A stretch of DNA of 37,674 nucleotides, taken from positions 1-37,674 of IMG/VR virus record IMGVR_UViG_3300025603_000036, one strand, 5' to 3'. Within the stretch, counting starts at the first letter, position 1. Every line of letters begins with the position of its first letter. This DNA is from a virus. This document shows, one piece after another, positions 14,065 through 37,674 of this stretch. The notes under the pieces were generated by a model that did not search any database, was not told the DNA's origin, and worked only from the letters and a program-made list of their open reading frames with translations. A program made the position numbers and the translations under genes.

Positions 14065-14490
14065 CTATGCTACTTCGTCAAGGGTCACGCGGTATAGCGA
14101 AACAAAACGCCGCGTGTTTCCATCATCAGACCAGCCAAGTGACATAGTTTCAAACTCCGTGTCCACCCACACGATGCCCGTTCCGGTCAGGCCGTACCAC
14201 TCCAGCGCGTCCCGAACTTGCGATGATAGCGCCGCAATAGCCTGTTCGCTGGATTGGCCCGCTGTGGATCTCGCGTATCCGTCAATCTGCACCACGAATT
14301 GCGAACCGCGCGTGCCGGACGTGTTGAACGGCGATTCCGTAGCCTGAACAATCACGACATAAGGAAACGGCGTGTTGATTTCGCCCTCTGAATTTTGCGG
14401 GGCTTTTGGCGACCACACATCAGCCGTTAGCTGCGCATCAAGCCGCGTGTATAGCGCTTGCCGCAGGTTGCCCCATGTTGGTGCCGTCAT
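14065..14490 (-). CDS. Tail terminator / completion protein (DUF3168-like)
   Basis: 141 residues. The pattern 'LRQALYTRLDA', then FPYVVIVQATESPFNTSGTR, then 'RRFVSLYRVTL' at the end matches small proteins that cap the tail tube (DUF3168 / lambda gpU-like role). Its place directly before the major tail protein and after the HK97 gp10-like gene agrees. ATG 14490 overlaps the TGA before it and has AAGGGG upstream. Nothing is missing relative to the usual 120-145 residue length. Confidence 0.78.
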   Translation of the reverse strand: MTAPTWGNLRQALYTRLDAQLTADVWSPKAPQNSEGEINTPFPYVVIVQATESPFNTSGTRGSQFVVQIDGYARSTAGQSSEQAIAALSSQVRDALEWYGLTGTGIVWVDTEFETMSLGWSDDGNTRRFVSLYRVTLDEVA

Positions 14491-14924
14491 CTGAGCGATC
14501 CCCTTAATGCCCTTTCCAGTCTGGCAATATATTTTGGCGTGATCTTTTCAATCGCTGGGACCCATGCGGGGCGAGGATCAATACGCCCACTTCCAAATTC
14601 AAGGACAGCCGCATAGACCAAATCACTGCCAACCGTTGCAGACATAGGGCCGGTCTTGTCGAATATAACGCTGCCAGCAAGCCGACCTGTGTCTGACGCT
14701 GGTGCCTCTTTCGCTTCGCCGCTGGACGCTTGATGCTCAACCCCGCCGCGAACGTATATGCGCCCCGTTGCTGGCCCGTCCTGAATGCGCTTCACAATGT
14801 CGCCGCGCAATTCCATAGCCGTGCCTATCACCGCAACACCTACCGCCTCTTGCGCCTCTGCGCTGGCCCTGCGCAACGCGGCCTGAAGCTCTGCCATGCC
14901 TTCAATCTTTAGCTCTAGGCTCAT
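14487..14924 (-). CDS. HK97 gp10-like head-tail connector/tail completion protein
   Basis: 145 residues from ATG 14924 (GGGGTGG upstream); an in-frame extension to 14972 lies in promoter-like sequence and is not needed. Recognisable features are the N terminus SLELKIEGMAELQAALRRAS, the middle DTGRLAGSVIFDK and 'VYAAVLEFGSGRIDPRPAWVPA'. These match HK97 gp10-like proteins ('Y..ylEfGt.r..arPf..PA'). The protein joins the head-tail interface during assembly. It is the first minus-strand gene after the plus-strand regulator gene at 15011-15439, leaving an 86-base space between their start codons. Confidence 0.85.
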   Translation of the reverse strand: MSLELKIEGMAELQAALRRASAEAQEAVGVAVIGTAMELRGDIVKRIQDGPATGRIYVRGGVEHQASSGEAKEAPASDTGRLAGSVIFDKTGPMSATVGSDLVYAAVLEFGSGRIDPRPAWVPAIEKITPKYIARLERALRGSLR

Positions 14925-14954
14925 ACCGCCACCCCAAAAATACAAAAGACTGTT

Positions 14955-14984
14955 GACCTGTCGGGCTTGCAATGCAAGTATGTT
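14955..14984. promoter_or_regulatory. Palindromic TTGCAATGCAA element in front of the regulator gene
   Basis: The perfect palindrome TTGCAATGCAA lies at 14967-14977 in the 86-base space between two divergent starts (regulator, plus, 15011; gp10-like, minus, 14924). On the plus strand TTGACC (14953-14958) and TATGTT (14979-14984) flank it as loose -35 and -10 hexamers, but their 20-base spacing is longer than optimal. The box core is the same as in the two late promoter candidates. A single box of this kind is not rare in the window, so the link is tentative. Confidence 0.4.
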
Positions 14985-15010
14985 TCAGGATCAATTTTTA
15001 TGGAAATATT

Positions 15011-15439
15011 ATGGCCCGGATTGACGGACAGACTGCGCAACGCAACATCAGAATAATGACCGCCAGAGTTGAGGGGAAAACTCTTGATTACATTGCTCAA
15101 GCCAATGGGATAACCCGCGAACGTGTGCGCCAGATACTTCGCCGCCAGATTGATTACTTGCAAGAAACGCCTGCACGGGCGCAAGAGGATGAACGGCTTC
15201 GCAAAATTGCCGCGCTTTACAAGACGCAAAAGCAACCGAAAACATGCCAAGACAGTGAAGCCATAGAACTTGCAGTTAGCATTCGCGCTCAGAATGTGTT
15301 GAAACACGGCCTTGCTGGCGTGACTATTAAGGGGCTTGCAAGTTACCCTGACAGCTTTTTTCTTAGCATACCCAGCTGCGGTCGCAAAGTTCTGAAAGAA
15401 ATACGCGATGCCGCAAGTGATATTACTTTGGGCCATTAG
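15011..15439 (+). CDS. Transcription regulator: sigma-70 region-4-like HTH joined to RNAP alpha-CTD-like domain
   Basis: 142 residues on the strand opposite to all surrounding structural genes. Residues 19-46, with GKTLDYIAQANGITRERVRQ, match the region-4 HTH of sigma-70 factors ('TL.EIa...gvTRERVRQI'). Residues about 84-142 resemble the C-terminal domain of the RNA polymerase alpha subunit: SIRAQNVLKHG, then TIKGLASYPDSFFLSIPSCG, then RKVLKEIRDA. Arg92, Asn95, Gly124, Lys126 and Glu130 align with E. coli alpha residues Arg265, Asn268, Gly296, Lys298 and Glu302, which contact UP-element DNA. Known families thus suggest DNA and RNA polymerase binding; late-gene control is inference. The start was chosen at ATG 15011 (weak GGAA site); ATG 14972 is possible. 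The stop overlaps the convergent adaptor gene by three bases. Confidence 0.8.
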   Translation: MARIDGQTAQRNIRIMTARVEGKTLDYIAQANGITRERVRQILRRQIDYLQETPARAQEDERLRKIAALYKTQKQPKTCQDSEAIELAVSIRAQNVLKHGLAGVTIKGLASYPDSFFLSIPSCGRKVLKEIRDAASDITLGH

Positions 15440-15786
15440 GTTGCCACTCCAACTTCCGCGCTGATTTCAAGCCACTTATCGTCAAAATCCACGTTGTTGA
15501 TAAACCGCACCTGATACGCGCGCCCACGCACAACGGCACGGTCAACCTCAGTTAGGTCTGCGAAGTATCGCACCACAACCTTATGCGTAGATGTTGCCTC
15601 TGTGCGCTGAGACTGGAAGCGCTCCCCACCAGACATAGGCTTAACCATCGCCCGCGTAGGTGCTCCAGTGATAGCGGCCCATGCCTCAGCAAAGCCGCCT
15701 GCGCCGTCTGGGGTGCGCGTCAGGCGTTGAAATGTGACAGGCTCCCGAAGCATACGCGCGTTGTATTTGGAACAACAGCCTACCAC
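15436..15786 (-). CDS. Head closure / head-tail adaptor protein
   Basis: 116 residues. The core 'LREPVTFQRLTRTPDGAGGF' followed by W, 'RAMVKPMSGGERFQSQRTEA' and 'THKVVVRYFADL' is the usual signature of SPP1 gp16-like head-tail joining proteins. The start is a GTG at 15786 overlapping the stop of the connector gene. An internal ATG (15753) would remove residues before LREPV, where family members normally have a few, so the GTG is preferred though its ribosome site is weak. It converges with the plus-strand regulator gene (three-base overlap of the stops). Confidence 0.85.
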   Translation of the reverse strand: MVGCCSKYNARMLREPVTFQRLTRTPDGAGGFAEAWAAITGAPTRAMVKPMSGGERFQSQRTEATSTHKVVVRYFADLTEVDRAVVRGRAYQVRFINNVDFDDKWLEISAEVGVAT

Positions 15787-32637: not shown

Positions 32638-33321
32638 ATGGAAAAGAAATTTTACGTTTATATTCATCGCCGCAAAAGCGATGGCAAGATTTTTTATGTT
32701 GGCAAGGGGTGCGGAGGTAGGTCTAGAAACTTCACGCACCGATCCGAGGTGTGGATAAGAACCTACAAAAAGCACGGGGTAGATGTGTTCATTGTTGTTG
32801 ATGGGTTGCCAGAGATTTGCGCCCTCTCAATTGAAATGGCTCTGATAAAAATAATAGGAATGAAAAACCTGTGTAACCTTTCTGGAGGAGGGCTGGGTGT
32901 TTCAAGTATTACAGAGAAAACTAGAGAATTGAAGTCGCTGGCGATTTCTGGGAGGTTGAACCCTTCATTTGATAGCGTGGTTTATGATTTTTGGAACGAC
33001 AAGTATGGTCGACTGTCCTGCACAAAATTTGCGCTTCGGTCCGTATATGGAGTTCCTTCAAGCCACCTTTCAAGATTGTGTTCCGGCGAAAAGAAAATGG
33101 TAAACGGATGGGTTTTGTATAAAAACAAAAACAAGCCAAGAGGGAAGTCCGGACCAAATCATTCGACCAAAGATATATCTGACACCTACATAAATGAAGA
33201 TGGCAGGTCTTGGGTTGGCAACCCACATGACTTCAGAAATAAATTTGGGCTAAACAAAACGAATGTTTACAAAATGAGGACGGGCAGAAAGTCACCATAT
33301 AAAGGTTGGTCTCTAGCATGA
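32638..33321 (+). CDS. GIY-YIG endonuclease (homing type) with two C-terminal DNA-binding repeats
   Basis: 227 residues. The N-terminal nuclease has KFYVYIHRR (Tyr6, Tyr8), KIFYVGKGCGGR (Tyr20, Arg28), Glu66 (SIEMALIK) and the end NLSGGG (80-85), the order of GIY-YIG catalytic residues. Residues ~114-160 and ~182-227 form two related units, 'DFWNDKYGRLSCTKFALR ... GWVLY' and 'NEDGRSWVGNPHDFRNKFG ... GWSLA', which look like DNA-binding repeats of homing endonucleases. The gene is strikingly AT-rich compared with its neighbours, so recently acquired. AAGGAAGG precedes the ATG. Its stop overlaps the start of the VRR-NUC gene. Confidence 0.88.
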   Translation: MEKKFYVYIHRRKSDGKIFYVGKGCGGRSRNFTHRSEVWIRTYKKHGVDVFIVVDGLPEICALSIEMALIKIIGMKNLCNLSGGGLGVSSITEKTRELKSLAISGRLNPSFDSVVYDFWNDKYGRLSCTKFALRSVYGVPSSHLSRLCSGEKKMVNGWVLYKNKNKPRGKSGPNHSTKDISDTYINEDGRSWVGNPHDFRNKFGLNKTNVYKMRTGRKSPYKGWSLA

Positions 33322-37460: not shown

Positions 37461-37674
37461 CGGATCGCCAGCGCCGCCAACCCAGCCGTCCCGCTTGTCG
37501 TACGTGTCGAGCTTCATGCCGCGCCGATTCACCCACGATGAACCATAGTCGTCAGTAGGCGCGAAAGGCTCCAGCCGTTGCCAATTCAGCCCGCCGATCC
37601 GTGCCGCAGCTAGATTGTGCTTGTGCCCGGTGTAGGCATGGCGGTGCCTGCATTCGGTCCAAAATGGGCAAACG
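37446..37674 (-). CDS. Metallophosphoesterase, C-terminal part (same gene as at 1-1086)
   Basis: This frame is open from the window end to TAG at 37446. Residues encoded by 37485-37674 are the same as those encoded by 1-190 (the conserved TGHKH motif is within it). The 12 codons at 37446-37484 (WVGGAGDPLERD) are the true C terminus, not present at the left end. Joining 1086-1 to 37484-37446 gives the complete gene. Confidence 0.88.
   Translation of the reverse strand, partial: VCPFWTECRHRHAYTGHKHNLAAARIGGLNWQRLEPFAPTDDYGSSWVNRRGMKLDTYDKRDGWVGGAGDPLERD
37485..37674. repeat. Terminal overlap repeat, right copy
   Basis: Matches bases 1-190 without gaps, with four synonymous differences at 37530, 37542, 37545 and 37548. 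Marks the point where the circular sequence was cut open. Confidence 0.93.

Follow-up and report, generated by a model that had tools for sequence, protein, structure and literature searches.

A phage protein joining a sigma region 4-type HTH to an RNA polymerase alpha-CTD-like domain, encoded by an insertion in the late operon of an HK97-type phage

A plus-strand gene located within the minus-strand structural operon of a tailed phage was found to encode a small protein in which a sigma region 4-type HTH is followed by a domain resembling the RNA polymerase alpha-CTD. The analysis covered a 37,674-base virus record (the window), and the open reading frame (ORF) is here named REG. The two-domain reading of REG is supported by matches in two profile libraries, by controls with shuffled sequences, by the predicted structure, and by independent relatives. 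The protein is best explained as an accessory (moron-type) regulator that would bind promoter DNA of the -35/UP type and would most likely occlude such promoters, a reading to which a probability of about 0.5 is assigned. The features on which the argument is based are listed in Table 1.

Table 1. Features in and around REG (window coordinates).
Feature	Position	Strand	Basis and remarks
REG, sigma4-type HTH plus alpha-CTD-like domain	15011..15439	+	142 aa; ORF, domain matches, codon usage
Sigma70 region 4-type HTH	15065..15151	+	REG residues 19-47; Pfam PF04545, 8.6e-6; three model helices within residues 3-52
Alpha-CTD-like domain	15260..15427	+	REG residues 84-139; Pfam PF03118, NCBIfam rpoA, shuffles, model helices
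Insert carrying REG	14936..15442		507 bp, 47% GC; alignment with L007 and L008
Junction copy completing Hc1, GTTGGAGTGGC	15443..15453	-	Comparison with relatives
Junction copy before gp10, TTTGGGGTGGCGG	14926..14938	-	Holds the gp10 ribosome-binding region; comparison with relatives
Hc1 head-closure gene	15436..15786	-	Convergent with REG; Pfam Phage_HCP 6e-19, PHROG Hc1
HK97-gp10-like neck/tail completion gene	14487..14924	-	Divergent from REG; Pfam HK97-gp10_like 1.1e-6
Hexamer pair TTGACC-N20-TATGTT, weakly promoter-like, upstream of REG	14953..14984	+	Seen in the sequence; spacing non-standard
Palindrome CTTGCAATGCAAG, between the two hexamers	14966..14978	+	Seen in the sequence; perfect, 13 nt

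The window encodes an HK97-type tailed phage. Its minus strand carries the genes for terminase, portal, protease, major capsid, connector, and tail proteins, and its plus strand those for an AAA ATPase, a YqaJ recombinase, and a helicase. The first 190 bp of the window (positions 1-190) recur in direct orientation at its other end (37485-37674) with 4 mismatches, and the record may therefore represent a near-complete, circularly permuted genome.

The description of REG as an isolated plus-strand gene, made earlier from the sequence alone, proved accurate: the ORF is in frame and is flanked by Hc1-like and gp10-like genes, and the stop codons of Hc1 and REG overlap. Antisense ORFs are numerous in the window, and REG could be one that arose by chance across from the structural operon. 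The only copies of REG itself were in three other contigs, evidently of the same phage, and were identical, leaving no variation for a selection test. Against a chance ORF, no structural gene was found beneath REG: a 171-aa ORF antisense to it had no family match in Pfam or PHROG, and a hidden minus-strand structural gene over 14924-15436 was rejected because no family match was obtained and Hc1 and gp10 abut in relatives. The plus frame of REG was the best of the six frames for the codon usage of the phage (0.16 bits per codon, versus at most 0.03 for the other five), two profile libraries and the shuffle controls described below agreed, and two-domain homologues occur elsewhere, those in L110, L111, L117, and L118 already contradicting a chance origin. 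This explanation is extremely improbable and is rejected on the evidence of the relatives, codon usage, and shuffles, and REG is a real gene. Its start codon is not certain, since the same frame contains another ATG at 14972. The start of REG is overlapped by an 18-codon ORF in a different frame (15000-15056, plus strand), for which an AGGA is better placed than for the REG start; it is probably a chance ORF and possibly a leader peptide. No defence-gene match to REG was returned by PADLOC, and weak Pfam matches to TnsD, KorA, and others were discarded as below cut-off and at the level of the HTH only.

A sigma region 4-like HTH had been placed at residues 19-46, and it was recovered with the Pfam model Sigma70_r4 at 25.6 bits, above the cut-off of 24.1. 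The match spans positions 17-45 of the 50-position profile. Residues 35-42 preserve intact the stretch that contacts the -35 element, TRERVRQI, and RERxRQI is invariant across the REG family. Sigma region 2, which recognises the -10 element, had no match within the 142 residues using Pfam and NCBIfam, and a complete region 4.1, the beta-flap-binding surface, was not recognisable in REG, most of this region being absent. In a protein of record L112 (3524-4504), a segment that appears GIY-YIG-like by eye is followed by an HTH of the REG type (ITRERVRQIL), which suggests that this HTH is common to unrelated phage genes.

Residues 84-142 had been likened to the alpha-CTD, and this likeness was confirmed at several levels. 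The Pfam RNA_pol_A_CTD match covered residues 84-134 with an E-value of 6.2e-4 and a score of 19.9 bits, below the Pfam cut-off of 23.8; among 18,950 NCBIfam models, rpoA was the best for REG (2.4e-5, residues 40-137). A profile built only from five bacterial rpoA alpha-CTDs scored 20.3 bits against the C-terminal part of REG, far above the 9.0 bits that were the most reached by about 17,000 shuffles of the same residues. The shuffles, the NCBIfam value, and a PDB profile match at 1.2e-5 (see below) indicate homology beyond chance, and the C-terminal half of REG is best read as a diverged RNA polymerase alpha-CTD. The lack of any profile match to the alpha-CTD, or a different fold, had been named as grounds for abandoning this assignment; two profile libraries and the helix order of the model instead agreed with it.

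The proposed correspondence of Arg92, Asn95, Gly124, Lys126, and Glu130 in REG to R265, N268, G296, K298, and E302 of E. coli alpha held in the HMM alignment, as did the reported loss of C269 and S299. Two further E. coli contacts are changed, N294 to S122 and K291 to S119, giving five of nine alpha-CTD DNA contacts kept and four lost. N294 (minor groove) and K291 (phosphate) are named as contacts in the E. coli closed-complex structure (PMC7822876).

The structure of REG was modelled using AlphaFold2 with an eight-sequence alignment that included bona fide alpha-CTDs, giving a mean pLDDT of 73 and a pTM of 0.38, the latter indicating no fixed relative placement of the two domains. The model was as anticipated from the sequence, with a three-helix HTH (helices 3-20, 25-32, and 36-52), a linker of low confidence containing one helix, and C-terminal helices 91-100, 107-111, 114-118, and 125-139 in the four-helix order of an alpha-CTD. 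When the model was compared with the PDB using Foldseek, alpha-CTDs led the matches (e.g., 9dvt_A and 7vpd_S, TM about 0.68 over the target), and the top matches also included sigma region 4 chains, among them 3n97, an alpha-CTD/sigma4 complex on UP/-35 DNA. No Foldseek E-value was below 0.35, a weakness to be expected with domains so small. An alignment-free model of the C-terminal domain had low confidence (pLDDT 58) and matched no alpha-CTD. The alpha-CTD-like fold is thus a prediction that is likely, not proven.

Relatives were collected using DNA patterns for both motifs and a profile scan of viral proteins. The search for the same domain order in phages, suggested along with the original assignment, succeeded in several other viral lineages: the order sigma4 followed by an alpha-CTD-like domain was found in L097, L102, L108, L110, L111, L113, L117, and L118, at identities of 23-31%, and this architecture therefore recurs in other phages. 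Small proteins of 127-177 aa are encoded by L110, L111, L113, L117, and L118, and one of about 200 aa by L102. The L097 protein carries an extra N-terminal XRE-type HTH and matches the Pfam sigma4 and alpha-CTD models at 8.1e-18 and 5.3e-20, respectively, and the protein of L108, a human gut phage, has an additional N-terminal segment that appears MerR-like by eye. Eight proteins were aligned; Pfam detected sigma4 in all eight and the alpha-CTD in five, with the alpha-CTD cut-off clearly passed by L097, L102, and L113. The equivalent of G296 is invariant in the eight proteins, and R265 and G296 are largely conserved across the family.

Since the E-values of the profile scan refer to candidates selected by their HTH, the C-terminal similarity was tested separately. 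The C-terminal profile of the sibling proteins scored 27.1 bits against REG (shuffles at most 8.5), and the family C-terminal profile scored 25.6 bits against the E. coli alpha-CTD (shuffles at most 11.1). A profile of REG, L110, L111, L117, and L118, none of which exceeds the Pfam alpha-CTD cut-off, gave matches in the PDB with E-values of 1.2e-5 for a solved alpha-CTD chain and 9.4e-8 for sigma region 4. In L117 and L118, the homologue is flanked by genes for an AEP primase and a UvrD helicase and is, from these neighbours, a replication-operon gene; L117 also encodes DNA polymerase A. Scans of cellular genomes using exact peptides or one codon choice, which by their nature do not establish absence, gave no relatives of REG.

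REG lies on an insert that is bordered on each side by a copy of a short junction sequence and has a GC content of 47%, compared with 57% in the flanking genes. L007 and L008 encode Hc1 and gp10 proteins 91-97% identical to those of the window and have no REG at the junction, which is empty in L007, L008, L010, and others, the Hc1 stop overlapping the gp10 start. None of the 49 virus records of related phages that were searched, many being fragments, contained a detectable member of the alpha-CTD family. REG thus has two features by which morons are recognised, a site that is empty in close relatives and a deviating base composition, and its absence from these relatives marks it as an accessory gene and not a core regulator of the phage. 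At the same junction in L036 (7242-7478, plus strand), a different gene of 79 aa encodes a sigma4-like HTH (Pfam 0.003, below cut-off); this gene follows the operon direction, and its start and stop codons overlap both neighbours. An alpha-CTD-like segment considered in the L036 insert was rejected as not above shuffles, so only the HTH is held in common with REG. The presence of REG here and of another gene in L036 makes the Hc1/gp10 junction a recurrent insertion point. In a more distant relative, L087 (11639-13421), about 1.8 kb lie between Hc1 and gp10, most of which is one long frame in the operon direction.

A sigma-70-type scan identified neither a consensus sigma-70 promoter for REG nor a plus-strand terminator after it. 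With no such terminator and with overlapping stop codons, transcription of REG would, from the gene anatomy, continue into the late genes in antisense, and late transcripts would likewise cross REG in antisense. The palindrome CTTGCAATGCAAG is a possible operator that could also have arisen by chance; in the window it was neither repeated nor enriched beyond chance. No target promoters of REG and no phage promoter class were identified.

According to the preferred explanation, the HTH of REG would recognise a sequence of the -35 type through the major groove, and the alpha-CTD-like domain, joined to it by a linker of about 30 residues, would either occupy adjacent DNA with a narrow minor groove (UP-like) or pair with the host alpha-CTD. 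The protein would in this way cover the composite -35/UP surface used by the RNA polymerase holoenzyme and would most likely block -35/UP promoters by occlusion, the gene having been inserted backwards at the junction and being transcribed separately from the late operon and in the opposite direction. We infer these DNA targets, the occlusion, and the timing of expression. Binding at -35/UP DNA is favoured by the intact -35 helix, the retention of the central alpha-CTD Arg, Asn, Gly, and Lys, and the absence of region 2 and most of region 4.1, and a protein bound there would exclude the polymerase; selective activation or polymerase binding by REG is also possible, and the sequence does not distinguish occlusion from activation. 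The alpha-CTD score under the Pfam cut-off and the changes at N294, K291, C269, and S299 weigh against this explanation, as do the failure to find a target promoter or operator, the low pTM, and the poor alignment-free model. REG could instead, as had been proposed from the sequence alone, redirect host RNA polymerase, binding core enzyme or holoenzyme through contacts of the sigma4-like part with the beta flap, or of the alpha-CTD-like domain with sigma4 or alpha-CTD, and recruiting it to phage promoters. Both domains derive from the promoter-contacting parts of the polymerase itself, the homologue in L117 and L118 belongs to a replication operon, a suitable place for an expression switch, and T4-type phages redirect the polymerase through sigma4 contacts (gp33 and AsiA are reviewed in PMC7824862). 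Nevertheless, such a role appears rather doubtful: REG lacks sigma region 2 and a full region 4.1, no class of phage promoters was found for it to serve, and its absence from close relatives means that it is not required for the expression programme of this phage.

REG might also be an ordinary repressor or activator whose HTH binds as a dimer to a palindrome such as CTTGCAATGCAAG, the alpha-CTD-like part serving for dimerisation or as an auxiliary DNA-binding HhH with no link to promoters. The perfect palindrome within the presumed REG promoter and the presence of the same type of HTH with other partners in many small phage proteins would fit this account, which we nonetheless consider unlikely, as the palindrome may be fortuitous and is unrepeated, and the retention of R265 and G296 across the family exceeds what mere dimerisation would need. 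A broader form of the occlusion explanation, put forward only tentatively, is that REG belongs to a recurrent class of phage proteins, each a single small soluble polypeptide, that rebuild the -35/UP surface of the holoenzyme, the look-alike binding and shutting the strongest host promoters and freeing polymerase for the phage.

Neither half of REG is new. A recurring phage protein in which a sigma4-type HTH is fused to an alpha-CTD-like domain was not found in the literature searched, which included few subscription journals. The alpha-CTD and sigma region 4 are known phage targets, subject to modification, cleavage, or binding. A protein that copies both promoter-reading domains would follow a different strategy, in which the polymerase is imitated at the DNA. 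REG shares with rpoA a detectable homology, the helix order, and the five retained contacts, but it has no alpha N-terminal domain and has a small insertion after helix 1. Its HTH resembles sigma-70 region 4 in exceeding the Pfam cut-off and containing TRERVRQI, whereas REG is stand-alone, without region 2, and with region 4.1 unmatched. Minimal single-HTH phage sigma-like proteins and gp33 are likewise small phage proteins with a sigma-type HTH but, unlike REG, have no alpha-CTD-like domain (PMC7824862). The P22 moron Pid, which alters host transcription, is also a late-region insert read against its neighbours and absent or replaced in related phages, as is REG (PMC3573128); Pid has a 3' terminator, whereas none was detected for REG, and the domains of REG are recognisable. 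No sequence relation between the two is claimed. Compared with its viral relatives, REG has the same domain order and, for L110, L111, L113, L117, and L118, a similar size, but L097 and L108 have an extra N-terminal domain, and the genes of L117 and L118 are oriented with their neighbours while REG is oriented against its own. Because several phage lineages encode compact versions, small proteins suffice to test the idea, and the relatives assembled in this analysis delimit a group whose members can be enumerated and given a name.

Elsewhere in the window, a plus-strand gene of low GC content (42%) at 32638-33321 had a weak match to GIY-YIG nucleases (Pfam 5.9e-5, below cut-off) and may be a homing endonuclease or some other recent acquisition.
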